Shown here one piece after another: positions 2,359 to 57,180 of a stretch of 64,000 bases of DNA. The position numbers and the translations under genes were made by a program. Origin of the DNA: Actinopolyspora alba (lineage in GTDB: Bacteria; Actinomycetota; Actinomycetes; Mycobacteriales; Pseudonocardiaceae); the NCBI RefSeq assembly GCF_900112765.1, contig NZ_FOMZ01000002.1, positions 310,001-374,000 of the forward strand, written 5' to 3'. Numbering within the stretch: the stretch's first letter is position 1; each line of letters starts with the position of its first letter. The notes under the pieces were generated by a model. The model worked only from the letters and a program-made list of their open reading frames with translations. It was not told the origin of the DNA and ran no database searches.

Positions 2359-4026
2359 CTAGAGGGAGAAGGGGACGTAGCACAGCACGGCGAGCACGAT
2401 CGCCCCCCAACCGAGCAGGGCCGGTTTGCGGTACCAGGCGTCATCGCCCCGCTGCATCTCTCCGGAGTCCGTGGCATCGGCCCGGGTGTAGACCAGCCCC
2501 GCGAGCTCGGCCTCCGGTTTCGGTGTCGTCGCCAGCGCGATCGGGACGCTGACCGCGAGGTCGGTCACGAGAGCGATGATGGCCGCGATCATGTTCACGC
2601 CCTGCGCGCTGTCCATGTCCACTATTCCGACCCGGTACATGCTGTAGAAAGCGATCGGCGCGAGGGTGCCGAGCAGCAGTCCCCAGAATCCCGCCTTGGC
2701 GGTCATGCGTTTCCAGAACAACGCCAGAATGAACGTGGCGAACAACGGGACGTTGAAGAACGAGAACAACGTCTGCATGTAGTTCATGATGTTGCTGAAG
2801 GAAGCCGCGATGAACGCCGTTCCGATACCGATCACCACACCGATGGCGGTGATGACACGCCCGACCGTGAGGTAGTGCGAATCCGGCATGTTCGGTTTTA
2901 TGTACGGCTCCCAGATATCCGCGGTGAACACGGTGTTGAAACTGGAGACGTTGGCCGCCATACCGGCCATGAACGAGGCCATCAGACCCGTGACCGCCAG
3001 CCCCAGCACGCCGTTCGGCAACAATTGCGCCATGAGCAGCGGAATCGCCGAGTTGTAGTCGTACTGACTGCCGGGTTGCCCGATGTTGGGCTGCATGATC
3101 AACGCGATCAGACCGGGCAGCACCACGACCAGCGGGATGAACATCTTGGGGAACGCAGCGATCAGCGGAGTGCGCCGGGCCGCCGAGAGGTTCTTGGCGG
3201 ACAGGGAGCGCTGCACCTCCGCGAAGTTGGTGGTCCAGTACCCGAAGGAGATCGCGAAGCCGAGGCCGAGCGAGATGGTGAGCCAATTGGCCCCGAGCGG
3301 GTTGTCCTGCCCGAATCCGGTGCCGCCCCAGGCGCTCAGGAACTGTGCTCCTTCGGAGGCGGTCACCTTGTCGATGACACCGCTGACACCGCCGACCCGG
3401 ATCAGCCCGAGCACGGTGAGCGGCACCAGCGCCGCCACGATGACGAAGAACTGCAGCACCTCGTTGTAGATGGCCGAGGTGAGTCCACCGACGGTGATGT
3501 AGATCAGCACGAACACACCAGCTATGACGATGGACAGCGGGATCGGCCAGCCGAGCAGTGCCTGCAGCACGATGGCCAGCGCGTAGAGATTCACACCGGC
3601 TATCAGAACCGAGGCCACCGCGAATATGACCGCGCTCAACAGGTGCGAGGAACTGCTGAACCGCCGCAGCAGGAATTCGGGAACACTGCGCACCTTCGAG
3701 TTGTAATAGAACGGCATCATGACCAGGCCGAGGAAAACCATGGCCGGAATCGCGCCGATCAGATACCAGTGCACGGTGTAGGCGCCGTACTGCGCGCCGT
3801 TGGCGGCCATGCCGAGAATCTCGGTGGCTCCCAGATTCGCCGAGACGAACGCCAGTCCCGTCACCCACGCGGGTAGTGAACGCCCGGACAGGAAGAAGTC
3901 GAGCGTGGAGTGGACGCTTCGTTTCGCGGCGAACGCGATACCTAGCACGACCACGAAGTAAATGACAAGAATGAGGCTGTCCATCCAGTTCATGGACAGC
4001 CGTAGCCCATCGGCCAGAGTGTGCAT
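2359..4026 (-). CDS. Sodium:solute symporter (SSS family)
   Basis: This is a 555-residue polytopic membrane protein with about 13-14 predicted hydrophobic segments. It shows SSS-family features: an early helix (LILVIYFVVVLGIAFAA), then STLDFFLSGRSLPAW, SANLGATEILGMAANGAQYG and GGLTSAIYNEVLQFFVIVAA. I place the start at ATG 4026 (MHTLADGLRLSMNWMDS). An in-frame start at 4131 would put the palindromic operator at 4081-4102 inside the coding region and adds a non-membrane, basic tail. It probably imports a small organic solute (sugar, carboxylate or amino-acid type) with sodium. The substrate is unknown. The shared operator links it to the IclR/U32 pair. Confidence 0.88.
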   Translation of the reverse strand: MHTLADGLRLSMNWMDSLILVIYFVVVLGIAFAAKRSVHSTLDFFLSGRSLPAWVTGLAFVSANLGATEILGMAANGAQYGAYTVHWYLIGAIPAMVFLGLVMMPFYYNSKVRSVPEFLLRRFSSSSHLLSAVIFAVASVLIAGVNLYALAIVLQALLGWPIPLSIVIAGVFVLIYITVGGLTSAIYNEVLQFFVIVAALVPLTVLGLIRVGGVSGVIDKVTASEGAQFLSAWGGTGFGQDNPLGANWLTISLGLGFAISFGYWTTNFAEVQRSLSAKNLSAARRTPLIAAFPKMFIPLVVVLPGLIALIMQPNIGQPGSQYDYNSAIPLLMAQLLPNGVLGLAVTGLMASFMAGMAANVSSFNTVFTADIWEPYIKPNMPDSHYLTVGRVITAIGVVIGIGTAFIAASFSNIMNYMQTLFSFFNVPLFATFILALFWKRMTAKAGFWGLLLGTLAPIAFYSMYRVGIVDMDSAQGVNMIAAIIALVTDLAVSVPIALATTPKPEAELAGLVYTRADATDSGEMQRGDDAWYRKPALLGWGAIVLAVLCYVPFSL

Positions 4027-5905: not shown

Positions 5906-6090
5906 GCAGCACATACTTTCGCGCGGCCACCGTCGTTGGCAAGTTCGCCACGCGCCGGAACGCGGTGTGACCGCTGATACACCGAACGGCGAAACGGCAG
6001 CCGAGCGGCGGTACGAGCGTGTCGATCAACCGCCGTGAAAGACGGACGGGGCTTGCCAAACCGGGCGGGGCACGCAACCATACGAGCGCC

Positions 6091-6320
6091 GATGGTTCAG
6101 CGGCGAGGGCACAGGCCTCGGCGCTGAGGCAAGAGGGAATCCGGTGCGAATCCGGAACTGCCCCGCAGCGGTGAGTGGGAACGAACGTCGTCACCGCCGC
6201 GCTCCCCGCCCGGGATCGCGAGCGGAACACGGCACTGGACCAGGGGTCCGGGAAGCCGACGACCAGTAGGAGAACCGGCTACAGCCGGCGGTGCCCGCGA
6301 GTCCGAAGACCTGCCGTCGG
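6091..6320 (+). ncRNA. Cobalamin riboswitch upstream of metE
   Basis: The conserved elements appear in order: AGAGGGAATCCGGTGCGAAT, the CTGCCCCGCAGCGGTGAG segment, and the B12-box-like GAGTCCGAAGACCTGCC ending near 6316. A GC hairpin follows at once (GCGCACCG at 6322-6329 with CGGTGCGC at 6334-6341) and is a candidate expression platform. It sits about 150 bases ahead of metE. The expected logic is that adenosylcobalamin binding lowers expression of the cobalamin-independent enzyme. Confidence 0.93.
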
Positions 6321-6471
6321 TGCGCACCGCGAGCGGTGCGCGAGTCCGGGACCTCGAGGGAAGGTCGGCAGGGCGGTCACGTCGCGAGCTCCCACGCGAC
6401 CGTGGACACGTGTGCCCTCATTCCTCGAGGTGCTCGGTCGACCATGTCGTCGAGCTCGCGAGGAGAGAGCT

Positions 6472-12687: not shown

Positions 12688-13068
12688 ATGACCGATCCCT
12701 TTCTGGACTCCATCGCCGCGGCACTGGCCGGGCAGGCCGCGGCGGCGCTCGGCAGCGCGGGCTCGGCGGCACTGGCGAAGGTGCGGGAGCTCGTGCGAGG
12801 CAAGTCCGAAGCGGACCCGCGAACCGAGGCGGCGCTGGAGGCCGCCGAGGACCGTCCCGCCGATCACCCGAAAGTCAGTGCGCTGGCCGAACGGCTCGAA
12901 CAGCTGGAACACGACGATCCCGAGTTCGGCGCACGATTGCGCGAGGCGGGTGAACCCGTACACCAGCAGCTGCGGGCCACCGGCAACCGGACGGTCAACC
13001 AGTTCAACGGCAACGCGCACAACGTGGTGCAGGGCGAAACGTTCGACCGGATCGAGTTCAACGGCTAG
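12688..13068 (+). CDS. Small protein with Bell-like domain and RHIM-like amyloid motif
   Basis: This is a 126-residue protein. TACACT ends seven bases before ATG 12688, so the message is probably leaderless. Residues 1-90 are predicted helical, with Ala/Leu-rich repeats and the DPRTEAALEAAEDRP and LAERLEQLEHDDPEFGARL pattern. This resembles the N-terminal domain found in many actinobacterial proteins that end in amyloid-signalling sequences. Residues 100-124 contain N-x-F-x-G-x-A-x-N-V-V-Q-G, then T-F and I-E-F, close to the bacterial RHIM-like (BASS3-type) pattern N..G.V.G.VVQ.G.I.G.V.F. If correct, it is the receptor-side or adaptor half of an amyloid-signalling immunity or cell-death pair. 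No effector gene is adjacent. The domain assignment comes from pattern recognition only. Confidence 0.55.
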   Translation: MTDPFLDSIAAALAGQAAAALGSAGSAALAKVRELVRGKSEADPRTEAALEAAEDRPADHPKVSALAERLEQLEHDDPEFGARLREAGEPVHQQLRATGNRTVNQFNGNAHNVVQGETFDRIEFNG

Positions 13069-13102
13069 TTGAACTTTCCGGCTGACCGTCGTAGGCACGC
13101 GG

Positions 13103-13298
13103 GTGGCGGAACCTCTCGCACGGCTCTCGCTGCGGGTAGGCCCGACCTCGGGTAGCGACCTGCGCGGCGAGCGGCCCGGCCTCGCAATGCATCCGACTCA
13201 CGCACCGGGGTTCCCTGCGCTGCCTCGCTCACGGTCGTGTGCCGAGGGGACCCGCGATTTCACGAGAGCCGCACCGGAGAACCCGCGGCGGTGCCGAT
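13103..13298 (-). repeat. Dispersed structured repeat R2 (expanded interior)
   Basis: This copy is inverted relative to R1. The GGTTCCGCCAC arm (13103-13115 as GTGGCGGAACC) begins 34 bases after the stop of the Bell-like gene. The arm pair CGGCTCTCG(C/T) with GCGAGAGCCG is kept, and the distal arm GGAGAACCCGCGGCGGTGCC ends at 13296. The interior is about 80 bases longer than in R1, R3 and R4 and shows no clear inner stem. Confidence 0.7.
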
Positions 13299-13336
13299 CG
13301 CGAGGGTGGTCGGAGTTCGGCACCACGCCGTGGGCT

Positions 13337-13483
13337 CGACGATTTCGCGAGAAATTGACGAAGCTCGGGGCGCGCCACCGTACCGGGCCGTCGATTTCGC
13401 GAGAAATCGACGCGCGGCTGGGGAAGGAGCCCCGGTGGTGAGGTGGTCCGGCCCGGGTGGTGTCAATTTCTCGCGAAATCGAC
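13337..13483. repeat. Cluster of three short palindromes (P1-P3)
   Basis: P1 (13337-13360) has core ATTTCGCGAGAAAT. P2 (13390-13411) has perfect 9-base arms GTCGATTTC and GAAATCGAC around GCGA. P3 (13462-13483) has the inverted core. Core spacings are 52 and about 71 bases, with unrelated GC-rich spacers. The cluster follows R2 and precedes the end of a convergent gene. The mirror-image arrangement is seen at 36906-37215. Confidence 0.75.
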
Positions 13484-13511
13484 GCCACCGAGGAATCGAC
13501 GCGGGCGAGGA

Positions 13512-19984: not shown

Positions 19985-20038
19985 CCACCCGGCGGAACCT
20001 CCCGTCGGCTCTCGCTCCGGGTGGCCCGACATCGGACA
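19985..20038 (-). repeat. Dispersed structured repeat R5 (partial)
   Basis: Only the arm with GGTTCCGCC, the GCGAGAGCCG segment and part of the inner region (GATGTCGGG) are present, read on the minus strand. The other half is missing. Unlike R1-R4, the conserved end points away from the neighbouring gene end (fadB stop at 20045). Confidence 0.6.
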
Positions 20039-20044
20039 GGTGGA

Positions 20045-23703: not shown

Positions 23704-23827
23704 GTCAATAGGATATATTCTCCCGGAACCGGTGGGGTGCAGTACCTGCTCGATGTCGGGCCGCCCGGAACGAGAACCGGCGGAAAGTTCCACCGAACGG
23801 GCATCCCGACGAGCCGACGGGCCCCGC

Positions 23828-25162
23828 TCAGGCGGAGTCGCGCAGCAGCGACTCGACCGAACGGCCGCGGATCGCGGCGTCGAGCAGCTGCACCGTGTGT
23901 GCCATCGGCATTCGCTCCCCCTTGGCGCGCAGCGCCGTCCGGATCTGCATCGAGCAACCCGGGTTGGCGGTCACCAGCAGGTCGGCCCCGGTGTCGAGCA
24001 CGTTGTCGGCCTTGCGCGCACCGAGCTCGGCCGCGGCCACGGGACGCAGCAGGTTGTAGACCCCGGCCGACCCACAGCACAGCTCGCCACGGTTGATCTC
24101 ACGCAGTTCGAGTCCGGGAATCGTCCGCAGCAGTTCACGGGGTTGGGCACGGACACCCTGACCGTGACTGAGGTGGCAGGCGTCGTGATAGGCGATCCGC
24201 ACCGGCAGCGAACCGCGCGTCGCCACCGGCCCCAGTTCGACGAGCACTTCGGAGACGTCGCGCACCCGCTCGGCGAACTCCGCCGCGCGCGGGGAGTACA
24301 ACGGGTCCCCCGCGAGCAATCGCGGGTACTCCTTCATCGCCGAACCGCAACCCGCCGAGTTGACCACCACGTAGTCCACCCCGGCGGTGTCGAACGCGTC
24401 CAGGGTTGCCCGCGCGAACCGTTCGGCCTCCCGCTCGCGACCGGAGTGCTCACTCAACGCACCGCAACATCCCTGGGCGGGCGGAATCACCACCTCGCAG
24501 CCCTCCGCGGCGAGCACCCTCGCGGTCGCCGCGTTGACGTCCGGGAAGAAGGCGTGCTGCACGCAGCCGGTGAGCATGCCCACGACGGCTCGACGCGGAC
24601 CGGCGGCGGGCACCCGGTCGGGAAGCGGCGCGGCGCGCCTTATCGGGGGTGCGAGCGACTCCATCGTGCGCACCTCGGCGGGCAGCTTGTTCAGCAGTCC
24701 GCTGCGCCGCAGCAGAGCTCCGATCCCGAGGCGCTGGTACAGCGCCAGTGGGCCGCGCAGCAGGCGCAGGCGGCGTCGGTGGGGAAAGAGCGCGAAGATC
24801 GCCGCGCGCCACCAGCGCTGCCACCTCCCGCGGGGATGGTTACGTTCCACCTGCGCACGGGTCTGGCTGAGCAGCGTGCCGTACTGCACCCCCGACGGAC
24901 AGGCAGTCACGCAGGCCATGCAACCCAGGCAGTTGTCGAAGTGCTCGACCATGCTCTCCGAGAGGGGCTCCCCGTCGAGGCCCGCTTCCATCAGGTGAAT
25001 GCGTCCACGCGGCGAATCCATCTCCTCGCCCCACAGCTCGTAGGTGGGGCAGGTGGGCAGACAGAATCCACAGTGCACACAGTCGTCGATCAGTCCCCGC
25101 TCGGGCGGGTTGAACACGTCGAACGCACCGTCCGGACCGGAACGCTCCGAGCCCTCACTCAT
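23828..25162 (-). CDS. glcF: Glycolate oxidase iron-sulfur subunit
   Basis: This is a 444-residue protein. Two 4Fe-4S binding motifs appear as CVHCGFCLPTCP (about 30-41) and CLGCMACVTACPSG (about 95-108). Two cysteine-rich CCG domains follow (GCVQHAFFP, GCCGALS, and later YHDACHLSHGQGV, GELCCGSAG, NPGCSMQ). It starts at ATG 25162 or the adjacent GTG 25165, with AGGGGG upstream. It carries electrons from the flavin subunits GlcD/GlcE to the membrane quinone pool. It lies downstream of glcD-glcE on the same strand, but a 240-base gap containing repeat R3 and a possible promoter separates them. Confidence 0.9.
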   Translation of the reverse strand: MSEGSERSGPDGAFDVFNPPERGLIDDCVHCGFCLPTCPTYELWGEEMDSPRGRIHLMEAGLDGEPLSESMVEHFDNCLGCMACVTACPSGVQYGTLLSQTRAQVERNHPRGRWQRWWRAAIFALFPHRRRLRLLRGPLALYQRLGIGALLRRSGLLNKLPAEVRTMESLAPPIRRAAPLPDRVPAAGPRRAVVGMLTGCVQHAFFPDVNAATARVLAAEGCEVVIPPAQGCCGALSEHSGREREAERFARATLDAFDTAGVDYVVVNSAGCGSAMKEYPRLLAGDPLYSPRAAEFAERVRDVSEVLVELGPVATRGSLPVRIAYHDACHLSHGQGVRAQPRELLRTIPGLELREINRGELCCGSAGVYNLLRPVAAAELGARKADNVLDTGADLLVTANPGCSMQIRTALRAKGERMPMAHTVQLLDAAIRGRSVESLLRDSA

Positions 25163-25182
25163 CACTGCCCCCTGGTCAGCTA

Positions 25183-25209: not shown

Positions 25210-25255
25210 CACCGCTCCCGCACTCACGCAGGCCAAACTCCCACCACTCCCGGCG

Positions 25256-25367
25256 TCGGCACCGCCGCGGGTTCTCTCGGGTGGTGCTCGTGAGGAAGGC
25301 CCGACGTGGCGTAGGCCGCTACTCGAGGTCGGGCACCCGGAGCGAGCGCCGCCCGAGAGGTTCCGCC
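25256..25367 (+). repeat. Dispersed structured repeat R3
   Basis: The family arms GCACCGCCGCGGGTTCTC and CGAGAGGTTCCGCC are present. The inner stem is GCCCGAC (25299-25305) with GTCGGGC (25328-25334), and the loop again contains GTAG...CTAC. The conserved end lies 38 bases beyond the glcE stop (25406). It separates glcE from glcF. Confidence 0.75.
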
Positions 25368-25405
25368 GAACGACCACCTACGGCGACCGAGCCGGCAGTG
25401 CGACA

Positions 25406-26692
25406 TCAGAGGCCTCCCACGAAACGCCCGGGTGCTAGCCGGTACTCCGGGTCGAACTGCTCCTTGACCCGGCGCAGCAGGTTGAACACTCCCGGCTCCG
25501 GTGTCTCCCAGGGATCGACCAGCTCCAGCACCGCGACCGGCGCGCGCAACACCGTGGTGTGACCGTGCAGCCGAGCGCTCGCGGCCCGCAACCGGGAAAC
25601 CGCAGCAGCGGTCCGGGCGGCTCCGGCTTCGGCCGGGACACCCCCCAGCAGCACTCCGGCACCCGCCGACCCGCGCACGGCCAGCGGCACCCCGGCCTCC
25701 CGCGCCGACCGCTCGGCGTGGTCCAGCAGCGACGCGAGCTCGGCCGGTTCCGCGGCGAAGCGCAGCCCGGTCGCCGTGCCGGGGTCGAACGGATACTCGC
25801 CCCACCACGACGGTGCGGCGCGTTCCACACCGGCGGTGACGTCCAGTTCCGTACCGAGCCACTCGGCCAGCTGCCACGCACGCTGCTCGGTCGCTCCCGG
25901 CATGCCCTCCAACTGCGCGCAGACCTCGAAGGGGGAATCAGAGTCCGGCCGGTCGAGCTCGATTCCGGTGGGCGCGGCCTGCGAGGAGCGCAGCGAGCGC
26001 ACCGCTGCCGCCGCCGCGTCGGCACGGGGCACGCGCAGCGTGACCCACCGGTACTCGGCCGCCAACGGGTGCAACCGGAAGGTCGTCTCGGCGATCACAC
26101 CGAGGGTGCCGTAGGAACCGGTGTAGAGCTTGCCGAGGTCGTAACCGGCTACGTTCTTGACCACCTTGCCGCCGGAAGCGGTGATCTCACCGTCGGCACG
26201 AACCACCCGGACACCGATGAGCAGGTCCCGCACCGTGCCGAACAGCTGACGGCAGGGGCCGGCGGAGGCGGTGGCGACGATTCCGCCGAGAGTGGCGCCG
26301 GGCAACGGGTGATCCACGGAAAGCTGCTGCCCCGCCGCCGCGACGGTCCGCCGGACCAGGGAAAGCGGGGTGCCCGCCGTGGCACGCAGCACCAGGTCGC
26401 CCGAGGCGTGCTCCAGCACACCCTCGGTTCCCGAGGTGTCGAGAACCAGGTCCACACCGCTGGGCGCCGCACCCCAGTCCAGCTTGCTGCCCCCGCCGCG
26501 CGGCACTACCCGCAGCCGGTGCGCGGCGGCCACGCGCAGTACCTCCGATATCTGCTCCGTGCTGTTCACCCGCGCCACCCAGCGCGGGGGCACTCCCCGC
26601 ACCGCGTCGGCCTCCGTGGCGTCGTGCAGATCGTCGGTGCCCAGCACGTCCGCCAGTTCGGTGCGTGCGGAGTCCACGGTCCGAGAAGTCAT
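25406..26692 (-). CDS. glcE: Glycolate oxidase FAD-binding subunit
   Basis: This is a 428-residue protein starting at ATG 26692, which overlaps the glcD stop (TGATG), so the two are translationally coupled. The FAD-binding (PCMH-type) domain shows RVVPRGGGSKLDWGAAPSG, VDHPLPGATLGGIVATASAG and KVVKNVAGYDLGKLYTGSYG. It is shorter than GlcD, as expected for GlcE. With GlcD and GlcF it forms the glycolate dehydrogenase that oxidises glycolate to glyoxylate. A longer start at 26800 would run through the glcD 3' end and is unlikely. Confidence 0.9.
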   Translation of the reverse strand: MTSRTVDSARTELADVLGTDDLHDATEADAVRGVPPRWVARVNSTEQISEVLRVAAAHRLRVVPRGGGSKLDWGAAPSGVDLVLDTSGTEGVLEHASGDLVLRATAGTPLSLVRRTVAAAGQQLSVDHPLPGATLGGIVATASAGPCRQLFGTVRDLLIGVRVVRADGEITASGGKVVKNVAGYDLGKLYTGSYGTLGVIAETTFRLHPLAAEYRWVTLRVPRADAAAAAVRSLRSSQAAPTGIELDRPDSDSPFEVCAQLEGMPGATEQRAWQLAEWLGTELDVTAGVERAAPSWWGEYPFDPGTATGLRFAAEPAELASLLDHAERSAREAGVPLAVRGSAGAGVLLGGVPAEAGAARTAAAVSRLRAASARLHGHTTVLRAPVAVLELVDPWETPEPGVFNLLRRVKEQFDPEYRLAPGRFVGGL

Positions 26693-32734: not shown

Positions 32735-32895
32735 GGCCGAACCTCCGTCGGTGCCTGCTCACGAGCCGGTTTGCCGATAGACGGACTCCACACCCGGGTA
32801 CCCGGGGTGCGGGGAACCGAAATCTCGGTAACAGCCTCTCACCGATGCGGTCCGCGGTGCTACGGCCCGCGGTGGTGTTCTTCGGCGCACTCGGC

Positions 32896-32917
32896 GTCGA
32901 TTCCTCGCGAAATCGCC
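32896..32917. repeat. Isolated palindrome P7 of the ATTTCGCGAGAAAT family
   Basis: GTCGATTCC-TCGC-GAAATCGCC differs from perfect dyad symmetry by two bases. It lies just beyond the 3' end of the acyl-CoA dehydrogenase gene (stop at 32933). Confidence 0.6.
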
Positions 32918-32932
32918 GGGCGTGGTGAGCGA

Positions 32933-36151: not shown

Positions 36152-36242
36152 CCGGGGTGTTCGGGACCGGTTCTCCTGAACCTTCCCGACGGGATCCGCC
36201 GCTGTCTCGTGAGCCGAGTTCTCGTCGTGCACGTGTGCTGTG

Positions 36243-36306
36243 ACCTCCGTGCACGGGGAGCTCCGTGCACGGGGAACTCCGTGCACGGGGAACTCCGTGC
36301 ACGGGG
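36243..36306. repeat. Four 16-base tandem repeats
   Basis: The unit (A)ACTCCGTGCACGGGG is repeated four times without gaps. The first two copies differ at the second or third base. Each unit contains the palindrome CCGTGCACGG. The array lies 137 bases upstream of the SSI-like gene, where it could be a multi-site operator. Confidence 0.9.
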
Positions 36307-36442
36307 AACTCACAGTCCAAGTTGCTTCCACGATCGACGGAAACTCGATCCGGTGATACTGGCCCGTGATTGCGGCGCGGTGCTACTCCAACCGGGTAAG
36401 TATTTCCCGAGGTGATCCCTATCGACACGGAGGAAGCACAAC

Positions 36443-36905: not shown

Positions 36906-37031
36906 CGATTTCGCGAGAAATCGACGCCCCGGTGCGGGGAGATGCCCCGGGCGGGCGTCAATTTCGCGAGAAATCGACGTCCCGCTATGGCGGTGTGGCC
37001 CCGAACTCCGTCAATTTCCCACGAAATCGCC
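36906..37031. repeat. Cluster of three short palindromes (P4-P6)
   Basis: P4 (36906-36925) and P5 (36957-36978, GTCAATTTC-GCGA-GAAATCGAC) are near perfect; P6 (37010-37031) is degenerate. Core-to-core spacing is 52 and 53 bases, and the 30-base spacers are unrelated to each other. The cluster starts 14 bases after the stop of the SSI gene and is followed by R4. Confidence 0.8.
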
Positions 37032-37101
37032 GGGCCACCAGCCCCGACGAACAGCCGCACTCCCACCACTCCCGCAAGCCGACCCCCACCACCCTTGCGG
37101 C

Positions 37102-37215
37102 AGGACCGACCGCGGGTTCTCCGGCGAGTGCCTCGCGAGGACGGCCCCGACGTTGTGTAGTGCCTACCCGATGTCGGGGCACCCGCAGCGAGAGCCGTGC
37201 GAGAGGTTCCGCCAC
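37102..37215 (+). repeat. Dispersed structured repeat R4
   Basis: The family arms are CGCGGGTTCTCC and GCGAGAGCCGTGCGAGAGG followed by TTCCGCCAC. The inner stem is GCCCCGAC (37144-37151) with GTCGGGGC (37173-37180). The 21-base loop is the same as in R1, although the stem sequence differs. The conserved end lies 35 bases beyond the stop of sdaA (37251). Confidence 0.8.
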
Positions 37216-37250
37216 GGAACCTCCTACGGAGGCGACTGCGCCATCGGCCG

Positions 37251-38606
<1,356 letters not shown>

Positions 38607-39221: not shown

Positions 39222-39428
39222 CCTCCCCCTCTGTTGCGGAACCTGAGAGCTTCACCGCGACGTCGCGGTTTGCACCGTGGGTGCGCACGCCTTCGTCGCG
39301 GCGGCGCTTTCCAGAGTTGCCTCGATCGGACGGTACGGATGCCTGAGAGTTTACGGGGAGTTTTGCTCCTTCGGCGCCCGTTCGGTGACACCGTGTGCAC
39401 GGTGCTCACCCGCGGGACTCTCCCGCCC
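39222..39428 (-). ncRNA. Tandem glycine riboswitch
   Basis: Read on the minus strand, aptamer 1 shows GCGGGAGAGTCCC, CGCCGAAGGAGCAAAACTCC and AACTCTCAGGCA. After a short linker, aptamer 2 shows CACCCACGGTGCAAACC, GAAGCTCTCAGGTTCCG and CAACAGAGGGGGA. Both aptamers have the paired AGGAGCAA/GGTGCAA and CTCTCAGG signatures of the gcvT-type glycine riboswitch. The 3' end lies about 140 bases before gcvH. Confidence 0.92.
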
Positions 39429-39657
39429 GGTGTCGTGGGCCGATATGCGATTGTCGCTGTGTTCGGCAACGATAACCCGAGGGGTGGGCGTATCCAACCC
39501 CGGATATCGCGAAGCGGCGAGTACGGGCCCCGAATGGGGCGTCGAAGCTCGCGCGGTGTGCCCACGATCACCGCCGGAGGTCGCCGCGGACCTCACGTGA
39601 TCGGGCGGGAGAACTCCCTTCTGATCTGATCCGTCGTGAACGATCCCGGGAGGGGTG

Positions 39658-52830: not shown

Positions 52831-54696
52831 ATGGTATCTCAGGATCACGAACCGGGCGACGGCGCCGCCGATGAGCTGACGCGGCTGGTTTACGACGGCA
52901 CTTTCGAAACCGTGCACAGAGAAGCTCGTGACATCCTGCGCCATCCCGTTTTCGACCATCGTGACGGGCTGACTGCCGAGCAGGAAGGAAGATTGGCTTA
53001 TGAACGCACCCGCACGGTGCACCATCGGATGGGACCGGCGGAAAAGACGGCGCGGGATCCGCTCAGGCTGACAGCCGCTGGCGAGTGGTCGTGCCTGTTG
53101 GACACGACCACGCTGCCGTTGCTGATGAGTCACTACAACCTGTGCCTGGGCACGATTCTCACGCACGGACGTGAGCGCGACGATCTGGAAGATCACCTGG
53201 CTGAGCTGCGTGAGATGTCCTCGGTCGGCGTGTTGATGGTGAGTGAGCTCGGTTACGGCAACAACGCGTCCGCGCTCGAGACCGAGGCCGTCTACGATCC
53301 CGAGCGACGAGAGTTCGTGCTCAACACACCCGCACCGCGAGCGCGGAAGTTCATGCCCTATACCGGTATCCCCGACATCCCGAAATTGGCTGTCGTCCTG
53401 GCCAGATTGGTAACCGAAAACAAAGACCGCGGGGTGTTCCCGTTTCTCGTACGCGTCAGCGACGAGAACGGTTTACGGCCGGGCATCCATGCCGTCAAGT
53501 GCCCGGAGAAAGCCGGACTCGCTCTGGACAACGGCATCACCTGGTTCGACCACGTGCGGATCCCGCGGCGCAATCTGCTGGCAGGCGACATGGCGACGCT
53601 GGAAGCGGACGGGACGTTTCGAGCCGCGATCACCGGCAAACGGGCACGTTTCCTGCGCGCGTTGGAACGCGTACATCTCGGACGGTTGTGTCTGGCAGGA
53701 GCGGTTGTCGCCGCCGGTCGAGCGGCGATCAGCCTGACCGTCACGTACGGACAACGACGACTGACCGCGGCACCGGGGCACGGCTCCGTTGCCGTCATGG
53801 CCTACCGAAGTCATCAGCGCGAGGTCCTGACCTCCCTCGCCAAGGTGTATGCCACCACCTTCCTGGTGAACCACGTCAAACGCTGGTTCGACGCCGGCGG
53901 AGAAGCGGATGCCGAGCTGCAACGACTCGTAGCGCTGACCAAGGCGCTGTGCGGCTCCGAGATGTCGGAAGTCCTCCATGCGTGCCGGGAACGCTGCGGT
54001 GCACAGGGCATGTTGCGGATCAACCGGATCCCCGACTACGTGGCGATGGCCCAGGGGGTGGTGACCGCCGAGGGGGACAATCTGCCGCTGCTGTCCACCA
54101 CGGCCTATCAGCTTCTGCAACACGAGGAACAAGCGGAGGAATCCACTCCCGCGCCGCCTCGGGATTCGGAAGATCCGTCCTGGCACATCCGGCTGTTGCG
54201 GTTCCGGGAACGACGACTGCGGCAGCGCGCACGTGAGCGGATGCGCGACCGGCTGCGCGGTGAGGCGACTCTGCTGGAAGCCTGGAACGACAGTTCCACC
54301 CTCGCGATCGACATGGCCCACACCCGCGCCGCACGTATCGCGTTGGAATGCTTCCACGACGCCGCCGACGCGTCGCCGCACCCGCGAGCACGTGCGGCGC
54401 TGCGGCGCTTGGCGAGCCTGTACGGACTGCTCACGGTACGCGGGAACGCCGACTGGTACCTGGCCAACCGGGCACTCACGCCGGAGCAGACCGATGCCCT
54501 GCCCGACATGGTGGACGGCCTGTGCTCCCGCATCGCACCGGATGCCGAGCTGCTCACCGAAGGATTCGCGATTCCGGCAGAGCTGTTGCGCGCCCCCATC
54601 GCCGGCGATGACCACATCGCCGCGATGCAACGGTTCGCCTCGGAGAAGCGCGGTGCGACGGACGGCACGGAAGCACCCGAAGAGGAGCGGGTATGA
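52831..54696 (+). CDS. Acyl-CoA oxidase-like flavoprotein
   Basis: This is a 621-residue protein starting at ATG 52831, with AGGAAA upstream. It is longer than acyl-CoA dehydrogenases (about 390) and matches the two-domain acyl-CoA oxidase layout. The flavin/substrate segment VSELGYGNNASALETEAVYD corresponds to the TELGHGTN..GLETTA.YD signature. ERCGAQGMLRINRI followed by GVVTAEGDN carries the likely catalytic glutamate. The helical C-terminal domain runs from about 440. Acyl-CoA oxidases desaturate acyl-thioesters and pass electrons to O2, giving H2O2. Its place in front of KAS III by an ATGA overlap suggests it acts on a CoA- or ACP-bound intermediate. Confidence 0.85.
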   Translation: MVSQDHEPGDGAADELTRLVYDGTFETVHREARDILRHPVFDHRDGLTAEQEGRLAYERTRTVHHRMGPAEKTARDPLRLTAAGEWSCLLDTTTLPLLMSHYNLCLGTILTHGRERDDLEDHLAELREMSSVGVLMVSELGYGNNASALETEAVYDPERREFVLNTPAPRARKFMPYTGIPDIPKLAVVLARLVTENKDRGVFPFLVRVSDENGLRPGIHAVKCPEKAGLALDNGITWFDHVRIPRRNLLAGDMATLEADGTFRAAITGKRARFLRALERVHLGRLCLAGAVVAAGRAAISLTVTYGQRRLTAAPGHGSVAVMAYRSHQREVLTSLAKVYATTFLVNHVKRWFDAGGEADAELQRLVALTKALCGSEMSEVLHACRERCGAQGMLRINRIPDYVAMAQGVVTAEGDNLPLLSTTAYQLLQHEEQAEESTPAPPRDSEDPSWHIRLLRFRERRLRQRARERMRDRLRGEATLLEAWNDSSTLAIDMAHTRAARIALECFHDAADASPHPRARAALRRLASLYGLLTVRGNADWYLANRALTPEQTDALPDMVDGLCSRIAPDAELLTEGFAIPAELLRAPIAGDDHIAAMQRFASEKRGATDGTEAPEEERV

Positions 54697-55963: not shown

Positions 55964-57180
55964 GCGATACCGCTCCCCTGGTCACCGGAATCGGGTTGGT
56001 CAGCCCGGCGGGAATCGGCGTGGACCGGAACTGGCAGCGGATCACGGAGGCGGTACCGGCCACCGCGCACGATCCGGTGCTGGCCGGTCTGCCCGTCGAC
56101 ATCTCCTGCCGGGTCCCGGAGTTCGATCCGGACGCCCTGTTGGGACAGCACCGCGCATGGCGGCTGGATCGCTATGCCCAGCTGGCACTCGTCGCCGCGA
56201 AGGAAGCCCTCGAAACAGCGGGGGTAATCCCGGGTGAGGTCGATCCGGCGCGAGTGGCCGTGGTGCTCGGCACCGGCGCCGGCGGCACGACCACCATGGA
56301 GAACCAGCAAACCGCGTTGACGCGGGACGGTGCGGGTGCGGTCTCACCCCGCACACTGCCGATGGGGCTGCCCAACATGGCGTCGGGGGAGATCGCGATC
56401 GAGTTCGGCTTCCGGGGCCCCGTGCTCACGACCTCCACCGCCTGCGCTTCGGGCGCCACGGCCATCGGTGTCGCGCGGGATCTGCTGCGTTCGGGAACGG
56501 TCGACCTCGCCCTGGCCGGTGGTACCGAAGCCGTCATCACACCGCTGTTCGTGACCGGGTTCCACCGCATCAGGGCCCTCTCGCGGCACATCCACGAGCC
56601 GCGGGAGGCCTCCCGCCCGTTCTCCGTCGGGCGGGACGGATTCGTCATCGGTGAGGGAGCGGGGATGCTCGTGCTGGAACGGAGCGAGCACGCTCGCGGC
56701 CGGGACGCTCCGAGGTGGGCGCACCTCGCCGGTTACGGAGCGACCGCGGACGCGCATCACCCGACCGCCCCCGCTCCCGACGGCGCAGGAGCCGAAGCCG
56801 CGATGCGCGCGGCCCTGACCGACGCCGACATCGCCGGGGCGGACATCTCCCACGTCAACGCACACGGCACATCGACGCGGCTCAACGACGCCCTCGAAGC
56901 CGATGTCGTTCAACGGGTGCTGGGGGACGAGGCCCTGGTCACCTCCACCAAGGGGGTCACCGGCCACACCCTCGGCGCCGCGGGCGCGCTGGAGGCCGCC
57001 TACACCGCACTGGCTCTCCAGCACGGCACGGTCCCGCCCACGGCCAACCTGACGGAACCTGATCCGGGAATCGGCACCGAACTCGCGACCACAGCCCGCT
57101 CCGCCCCGGGTCGAGCCGCCCTCAGCAACTCCTTCGGTTTCGGCGGACACAACACAGCACTCGTGCTCACATGCCCGTGA
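55960..57180 (+). CDS. Beta-ketoacyl-ACP synthase II
   Basis: This is a 406-residue protein. Its ATG overlaps the ACP stop. The Cys-His-His triad is present: Cys162 in TSTACASGATAIG, His302 in HVNAHGTSTRLND, and His336 in KGVTGHTLGAAGALEA. It is an elongating FabF/KAS II type rather than a chain-length factor, because the Cys is retained. It extends acyl-ACP with malonyl-ACP. No ketoreductase, dehydratase, enoyl reductase or malonyl transferase gene is in the operon, so those steps must come from elsewhere or be skipped. Confidence 0.94.
   Translation: MSDTAPLVTGIGLVSPAGIGVDRNWQRITEAVPATAHDPVLAGLPVDISCRVPEFDPDALLGQHRAWRLDRYAQLALVAAKEALETAGVIPGEVDPARVAVVLGTGAGGTTTMENQQTALTRDGAGAVSPRTLPMGLPNMASGEIAIEFGFRGPVLTTSTACASGATAIGVARDLLRSGTVDLALAGGTEAVITPLFVTGFHRIRALSRHIHEPREASRPFSVGRDGFVIGEGAGMLVLERSEHARGRDAPRWAHLAGYGATADAHHPTAPAPDGAGAEAAMRAALTDADIAGADISHVNAHGTSTRLNDALEADVVQRVLGDEALVTSTKGVTGHTLGAAGALEAAYTALALQHGTVPPTANLTEPDPGIGTELATTARSAPGRAALSNSFGFGGHNTALVLTCP

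Follow-up and report, generated by a model that had tools for sequence, protein, structure and literature searches.

A dispersed hairpin repeat with conserved structure at gene ends of Actinopolyspora and related genera: a candidate 3'-boundary element

Copies of the hairpin repeat in the window

The window, i.e. the whole stretch of 64,000 nucleotides of Actinopolyspora alba DNA that was analysed, contains the copies R1, R3 and R4 of a dispersed hairpin repeat, each facing the 3' end of a gene on the opposite strand, together with a rearranged copy and 5'-truncated remnants (Table 1). On the side away from its facing gene, R1 has a co-oriented gene. R1 and R4 have GTTGTGTAGTGCCTACCCGAT in common, set in the stems CCGGAGA/TCTCCGG and GCCCCGAC/GTCGGGGC, respectively; R3 has GCCCGAC/GTCGGGC and retains GTAG...CTAC. 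These sequences are as quoted in the initial annotation of this DNA, and the dispersed family proposed there is real and larger than had been noted, with R1, R3 and R4 among its members.

The rearranged copy R2 retains the outer arms and has 126 nt in place of 46 nt in the model. It is a chimera that took a part from a second hairpin family, its 3' half being rejoined at GCAGGTCGCTACC, and its counterparts in the related genomes G005 and G009 are likewise chimeric with that family. The second family (GGTGCGTGAGTCGGATGCAT...GTAGGTCGCTAC...CCGACTCACG) also has a GTAG-CTAC tip and gives 13 matches in the four genomic regions compared below, including positions 251107 and 303284 of contig C29 of A. 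alba and others.

Further small repeats accompany the element. Two to three short GGCCGAACTCCGACCACCCTCGCA-like units lie just upstream of the long hairpin in several A. alba copies, for example in the 5' flank of R4, and the companion palindrome GTCGATTTCTCGCGAAATCGCC is often found upstream of the element in Actinopolyspora. In the stretches L130 and L047 the 3' tail of the element (CCGC-CACCGGCACCGCCACGC... and similar) is duplicated alone and may be a module.

Table 1. Copies of the repeat and neighbouring features in the window
Feature	Position	Strand	Remarks
R1, long hairpin P1	2215..2315	+	Inner stem CCGGAGA; model match 2189-2341, E 1.4e-22
Gene facing R1, sodium:solute symporter (PF00474)	2359..4026	-	Stop 43 nt past P1
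Cobalamin and glycine riboswitches	6076-6332 and 39321-39435	+ and -	Rfam gathering scores passed
R2, rearranged copy	13080..13312	-	Model E 5.9e-7; 3' of + strand gene 12688-13068
Companion palindrome GTCGATTTCTCGCGAAATCGCC	13328-13487, 32895-32921, 36908-37035		
5'-truncated remnant, 3' half only	19991..20039	-	Begins close to the apical loop (profile position 55)
5'-truncated remnant	23727..23794	+	3' end 33 nt before stop of - strand gene 23828-25165
R3, long hairpin P1	25267..25366	+	Inner stem GCCCGAC; model match 25241-25392, E 1.8e-19
Gene facing R3, FAD-binding protein (PF01565)	25406..26677	-	Stop 39 nt past P1
Tandem 16-nt repeat CGTGCACGGGGAACTC	36232-36311		About 5 units
R4, 5' flank	37020..37111	+	C-rich linker containing short units of the CCGCACTCCCACCACTCCCGCAAG type; upstream of the linker, palindrome GTCAATTTC...GAAATCG
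R4, model match including flanks	37086-37238		E 1e-19
R4, long hairpin P1 (GCGGGTTCTC ... GAGGTTCCGC)	37112..37212	+	Inner stem GCCCCGAC; outer arms of mixed subtype
R4, 3' linker	37213..37250	+	38 nt, then TCA, the TGA stop of the serine dehydratase gene on the opposite strand
Gene facing R4, serine dehydratase (PF03313, PF03315)	37251..38606	-	3' end toward R4

Anatomy, fold and covariation

The element is about 150 nt long. Read on its own strand, it consists of a small hairpin or palindrome, a C-rich linker, the long hairpin P1 of about 100 nt, a second C-rich linker and often another small hairpin, and is followed by an opposite-strand stop codon. P1 is marked by a GUU/GUU motif at its base, a GAGGA internal loop and GTAG in the apical stem.

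As suggested in the initial annotation, a covariance model, based on 57 copies and comprising 151 positions and 41 pairs, was made and run on related genomes. Covariation was scored in alignment A3 (114 copies, mostly fetched via exact end motifs and hence invariant there by construction), in A4 (77 Actinopolyspora copies, 76 of them distinct, found by similarity or by the model) and in A6 (92 copies from several genera, 91 of them distinct, found by the model or by similarity and none by an exact motif). The GUU/GUU base is kept in 78 of the 91 usable copies of A6 and in 70 of the 77 of A4, and the GAGGA loop in 86/91 and 73/77, respectively.

The predicted RNA folds of the plus strands of R4, R1 and R3 are better than those of 200 out of 200 shuffled sequences (z = -3.8, -6.1 and -5.5), and those of the opposite strands are weaker (z = -1.6, -3.6 and -3.1; for R4, 11 of 200 shuffles did equally well). 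R1 and R3 are predicted to form a single long hairpin. In the best fold of R4 the inner hairpin forms and the base opens into flanking hairpins, because the left arm CGGCGAGTGCCTCGC and the right arm GCGAGAGCCGTGCGA belong to different subtypes; the covariance model flags non-standard pairs in these outer arms. The outer arms had been described as nearly invariant, which is true of the A. alba genome (88% mean column identity in the 31 copies of alignment A1) and does not extend across genera, where 114 copies have 89 distinct arm pairs.

Both sides vary in 27 of the 41 pairs in A3, 18 in A4 and 28 in A6. The covariation score was 0.372 in A3, compared to 0.119 (sd 0.005) in shuffled and at most 0.081 in slid alignments; the corresponding values were 0.161, 0.062 and 0.042 in A4 and 0.417, 0.127 and 0.085 in A6. 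The observed score was reached by none of 500 shuffles in each of the alignments. Sliding preserves the relatedness of the copies, which shuffling destroys, and the alignments, being fitted to the model, are biased in favour of the structure. Pairing is poor at some apical positions, e.g. two pairs are open in 63 and 61 of about 90 copies of A6. Covariation so far above both controls is expected of a structured RNA, and it strongly supports a fold that is conserved under selection while its sequence turns over.

Copy number and distribution

The A. alba genome has at least 40 BLAST matches to R4, and all 40 scored among 237 candidates have E ≤4.1e-30, so the repeat is not due to chance. The model finds 18 matches in 414 kb of this genome, 136 and 133 matches in the congeners G003 and G009, and 48 in G031 (150 places scored in each of the latter three). 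In a survey of the family it matched 15 of 60 genomes and 12 of 46 genera (E 0.01), and in an order-wide survey 8 of 150 genomes (E 0.001), all eight from the same family; both surveys used stricter filters, with at most 51 or 20 places scored per genome, and may have overlooked weak copies. Here, the family is the grouping of the genome collection used, and NCBI places Actinopolyspora in a family of its own. Since 34 of the 46 sampled genera of the family have no match, the element is dispensable.

At least 116 stretches of contigs matched in an exact-motif scan. Those with listed titles (80) belong to Saccharopolyspora, Actinopolyspora, Halopolyspora, Amycolatopsis and Sciscionella, apart from one in Azorhizobium (L033), which was taken as a chance match and discarded. 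The genomes G102 and G111 have one and two model matches, respectively. The best copy in each adjoins a gene that we take to be gatB, and both have a G-C pair in the outer stem where C-G is usual (2 of 91 copies in A6).

The Rfam search of the window returned only the cobalamin and glycine riboswitches and no family at the element; in the stretches L045 and L057 nothing was found at the element with E up to 5. Membership in an Rfam family was thus rejected. The literature searched does not describe the element either, and some copies may appear under other names in the lists of 190 ncRNAs and 265 intergenic candidates of Saccharopolyspora erythraea. These searches agree with the earlier remark that no described element has this consensus.

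Placement at gene ends

Placement relative to genes could be analysed for 143 of 144 copies, the remaining one having no recognisable end; genes were called by a codon-usage script of this analysis, not by a published caller. None of the 143 copies lies inside a called gene. For 139 of them the locus includes a gene on the 3' side. In 119 of these 139 cases it is encoded on the opposite strand and ends toward the element, and in the other 20 it is co-directional and reads away from the element, the start codon lying 51-53 nt off in five of these. The distance from P1 to the opposite stop codon is confined to 28-50 nt in 92 of the 119 copies (median 40); the other 27 stops lie outside this interval, the range being 11 to 569 nt. 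The 5' neighbour reads toward the element in 74 cases and away from it in 57 (n = 131).

Genes next to elements end in TGA, TAG and TAA in 69, 19 and 9 cases (n = 97), compared to 705, 106 and 36 cases among all genes (n = 847). As TGA is not enriched near the elements, it is the position that is kept and not a TGA motif, and TGA as a target motif for insertion was rejected.

In the 20 nt upstream of P1 the frequencies of C and G are 0.52 and 0.22 in copies from Saccharopolyspora and other genera, and 0.53 and 0.25 in 33 Actinopolyspora copies. The 20 nt downstream have 0.45 and 0.21, and 0.44 and 0.22, respectively, and control gene ends (n = 122) have 0.34 and 0.35. No U-tract follows P1 on either strand: T accounts for 0.06 of the 20 nt downstream, and A, the counterpart of U on the opposite strand, for 0.14-0.15 of the 20 nt upstream.

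The placement bears on the possibility that the copies are an independent family of trans-acting small RNA genes, or landing sites for an RNA-binding protein. The conserved GUU/GUU base and GAGGA loop beside freely varying helices do resemble a recognised ligand. Against such a role, the element keeps a fixed antisense position at unrelated genes, which are a symporter, FAD protein and serine dehydratase gene by Pfam and further include, as we presume from reading them, gatB-like and gcvP-like genes. This position argues for a role in cis, and we consider a trans-acting family or a landing site improbable.

The folding strand

If both strands were equally important, departures from Watson-Crick pairing to G-U and to A-C should be equally frequent. 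Among near neighbours, single changes between Watson-Crick pairs and G-U outnumber those involving A-C by 67 to 29 in A3 (83 copy pairs) and by 47 to 21 in A4 (60 copy pairs), with a further 58 and 39 single changes, respectively, leading to other mismatches. The standing ratio of G-U to A-C cells is 248:34 and 215:28 at well-paired variable positions, 244:100 with looser filters and 273:137 if poorly paired positions are retained.

The excess of G-U over A-C identifies the strand of the element as the folding strand. A strand-specific fold fits RNA, and it fits single-stranded DNA as well. The initial annotation had left the choice between RNA and extruded DNA; RNA or single-stranded DNA is now favoured and a two-strand cruciform disfavoured.

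Replication polarity

With the origin set at dnaA and the terminus assumed at the opposite point, 161 of the 203 listed copies in five genomes are head-on to the replication fork. The proportions are 26/26 in G031 (best 26 of 48 matches), 28/32 in G032 (best 32 of at least 51), 18/21 in G070 (best 21 of 40), 28/37 in G003 (best 37 of 136) and 61/87 in G009 (best 87 of 133). In G009 the part of contig C1 from 0.014 to 1.30 Mb, a quarter of the chromosome that holds the assumed terminus, contains none of these best 87 of 133 copies.

The bias of gene strands was controlled for in 40 stretches of G031 and G032, picked for containing copies, with 67 of 71 model matches used and four antisense duplicates dropped. 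Genes on the leading strand make up 208/373 (56%) of the genes of these stretches in G031 and 218/351 (62%) in G032, and copies antisense to the leading direction make up 23/23 and 36/44. In convergent gaps, where either orientation would place the element past a gene, 29 of 35 copies face the leading-strand gene. The polarity of the copies, in convergent gaps as well, is thus above the strand share of the genes and exceeds gene bias.

Polarity of this degree could indicate a signal acting at the DNA level, that is, a hairpin or a protein-bound site that pauses forks or orients the handling of the chromosome, like KOPS or Ter but based on structure. The listed copies of G031, all of them head-on, fit such a signal. 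It gives no reason for the spacing from the stop codon, the excess of G-U is easier to explain under RNA, the polarity is weaker in Actinopolyspora (61/87 and 28/37 listed copies), and the element is absent from most sampled genera. We regard a polar DNA signal as quite unlikely.

Replication polarity also speaks for non-autonomous mobile DNA, the hairpin of which would be recognised in single-stranded form at the replication fork. Transposition of single-stranded DNA of the IS200/IS605 type is replication-polar. The fold, strand, polarity and 3' placement would then reflect the chemistry of insertion together with selective tolerance, and the element would render no service to the host. A point against it is that the better-folding strand is, by derivation, the leading-strand template and not the lagging one.

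Local history of the copies

We compared A. alba with G005 and G009 (97.8% to each other, 95.8% to A. alba) and G004 (93%) over regions of 273-414 kb. A copy at the same locus is present for 15 of 18 A. alba copies in G005, 11 of 13 mappable ones in G009 and 9 of 11 in G004. Flanks match between the copy at 53860 in A. alba and that at 56197 in G005, and the type of the inner stem differs; G005 and G009 have the other stem type at the R1 locus, and their flanks are different too. Stem types therefore look like interchangeable blocks, as from gene conversion or allelic recombination, and one block swap can mimic many compensatory changes. The initial annotation had derived selection for structure from R1, R3 and R4. 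Selection is strongly supported by covariation among many copies and across genera, and the comparison of R1 with R4 is itself weak evidence for point-by-point compensation, given that whole stem types are exchanged between orthologous copies, that the arms of R4 are mixed and that half-copies are broken at the tip of the hairpin.

The same observations could be taken to mean that the covariation is mutational, with template switching, quasi-palindrome correction or gene conversion keeping the arms complementary without selection. The block swaps at orthologous loci, the mixed-subtype arms of R4, and the chimeras and breaks centred on the GTAG...CTAC tip would all be in line with this. Correction should remove mismatches, yet both the GAGGA loop and the GUU/GUU motif at the base are retained in different genera; and it should produce G-U and A-C equally, against the 114:50 found among near-neighbour changes. 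A purely mutational origin of the covariation is already weakened by these findings and appears very improbable.

A local profile search found 30 truncated matches. All of them lack the 5' part and none the 3' part, and in 17 the start falls in the region of the apical loop (profile positions 46-55); several are one locus seen in two or three species, and the distinct loci number about 10 by eye. The one-sided loss may be due to selection, as the 3' half borders the gene. The clustering of breaks at the tip of the hairpin suggests breakage of a DNA hairpin, and it would also be expected of a polar DNA signal whose hairpins are cut.

At one locus G005 has an insertion of 229 nt (227 nt in its sister G009) relative to A. 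alba, which ends one base before a stop codon. It has no target-site duplication, A. alba has a further, smaller indel about 50 nt upstream, and G004 has the same short junction as A. alba in the alignment; the difference may also be due to two separate losses and not to a single gain. The sharing of most A. alba copies with three relatives partly bears out the earlier statement that the element is not a recent copy, and the insertion qualifies it, as copies can apparently arise anew. An empty site with a target-site duplication was rejected: loci differing in presence are mostly deletions, half-copies or ambiguous, with this one insertion lacking a duplication. For the same reason, at a single locus with a second indel nearby, the element was not assigned to MITEs, which are defined by terminal inverted repeats together with such a duplication.

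On contigs of Saccharopolyspora hirsuta closely similar copies have long upstream parts in common. In copies of this type (among them L032, L034, L046, L053, L078, L089 and L095) the outer boundary merges into another palindromic repeat. A palindrome GATTTCCATTGAAATC lies beside these copies, analogous to the Actinopolyspora palindrome GTCGATTTCTCGCGAAATCGCC.

The local history thus touches again on mobile DNA. Its patchy distribution (15 of 60 genomes), the insertion in G005 and G009 that is absent from A. alba and G004, and the similar S. hirsuta copies with common upstream parts favour a mobile element. The lack of a target-site duplication at the one insertion and the presence of most compared copies at orthologous loci count against it, and so does the absence of matches among plasmids (two queries) and phages (one query), by which carriage on plasmids or phages was rejected. 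The Y1_Tnp domain (PF01797) was found in 7 of 14 element-bearing genomes, being absent from G008, G032, G033, G045, G054, G058 and G070, and in 2 of 16 other genomes. A Y1_Tnp enzyme is therefore not required, and a RAYT/Y1_Tnp mobiliser was rejected because the presence of the domain does not track the element. Overall, we hold mobile DNA of this kind to be unlikely as the full explanation, though likelier than the other alternatives to a boundary role. Compared to a boundary role, dispersal coupled to the fork explains the polarity nearly as well and the spacing from the stop codon less well, and the two are compatible.

Comparison with known repeats and RNA elements

PMC3733652 describes REP and BIME repeats as intergenic sequences of high copy number, mostly downstream of genes, that form hairpins with G-T pairs in the stems. 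The element resembles REP, BIME and REPIN repeats mobilised with RAYT (TnpA-REP) in copy number (133 and 136 matches), hairpin, GTAG motif and intergenic 3' placement, with 119 of 139 copies facing a 3' end. It is not a short GTAG-tagged hairpin: the REP/REPIN hairpin has 20-40 nt, compared to about 100 nt in P1, and has GTAG at its foot, in contrast to the tip of P1. The element further differs from them in its fixed orientation to the gene end and its replication polarity.

ERIC and similar imperfect-palindrome repeats of 100-200 bp are intergenic long imperfect palindromes, as is the element, and differ from it in sequence and host group. Unlike ERIC, the element shows covariation across genera and no target-site duplication at one insertion. 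Riboswitches and other cis-regulatory RNAs of Rfam have strong covariation around conserved loops, as the element does; unlike them, it has no Rfam match and lies at the 3' ends of unrelated genes.

Intrinsic and Rho-dependent terminators have the gene-end placement, hairpin and C-rich flank in common with the element. In contrast to terminators, it has no U-tract, has conserved internal motifs and a mismatch at the base that terminators do not need, and is oriented against the adjacent gene. An intrinsic terminator was rejected as neither strand has a U-tract. As for Rho, the linkers are C-rich and G-poor but short.

A possible boundary on antisense transcripts

We tentatively favour the reading that the element is a putative 3'-boundary element, conserved in structure, on transcripts that enter gene ends antisense and usually head-on to replication. 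The folding strand antisense to the gene, the narrow distance to the stop codon, the head-on polarity and the C-rich linkers together make up what such an antisense boundary is expected to look like.

We propose that an RNA polymerase could near the gene end from the far side, through convergent read-through or through divergent or antisense initiation. The element would then be transcribed in its folding sense and P1 could form in the nascent RNA, at which transcription would stop or the transcript be processed. Rho could perhaps load on the C-rich linkers, and P1 could perhaps protect the new 3' end. The net effect would be that antisense, usually head-on, transcripts are halted at the edge of the coding sequence. 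Termination itself, the involvement of Rho and the spread of copies are the least certain parts of this scheme.

Several findings do not sit easily with the proposed boundary. P1 is followed by no U-tract on either strand, which sets the element apart from an ordinary intrinsic terminator. The C-rich part has just about 25-60 nt, which is short for a classical rut site, and T is scarce in the linkers. The 20 copies with a co-directional 3' neighbour, five of them with its start codon 51-53 nt off, argue against a pure terminator, as termination would be harmful there. Furthermore, 27 of the 119 opposite stops fall outside the 28-50 nt interval, the 5' neighbour is not directed toward the element in 57 of 131 cases, the raw ratio of G-U to A-C is weaker (273:137), other mismatches are frequent (58 and 39), and 34 of 46 genera have no match.

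A more far-reaching form of the boundary reading is that the copies constitute a genome-wide, replication-polar set of RNA boundaries, in which one fold, copied beside many unrelated leading-strand genes at a distance set relative to their stop codons, halts antisense transcripts that come in head-on, and in which the GUU/GUU and GAGGA motifs are recognised by a protein dedicated to them. We consider this extension rather unlikely.

Repeats dispersed in bacterial genomes are usually taken for parasites or debris. In this case, a single fold is maintained across genera while the sequence of its arms changes, the copies keep within a narrow range of distances from stop codons, and their orientation is tied to replication. 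Even if it is merely mobile DNA, the element would be an unusually clear example of dispersal that is polar with respect to strand and fork, with conserved structure and without a known enzyme. If the boundary reading is true, it would provide a direct handle on how gene ends are protected from antisense transcription and head-on collisions avoided, in a host group that includes antibiotic producers.
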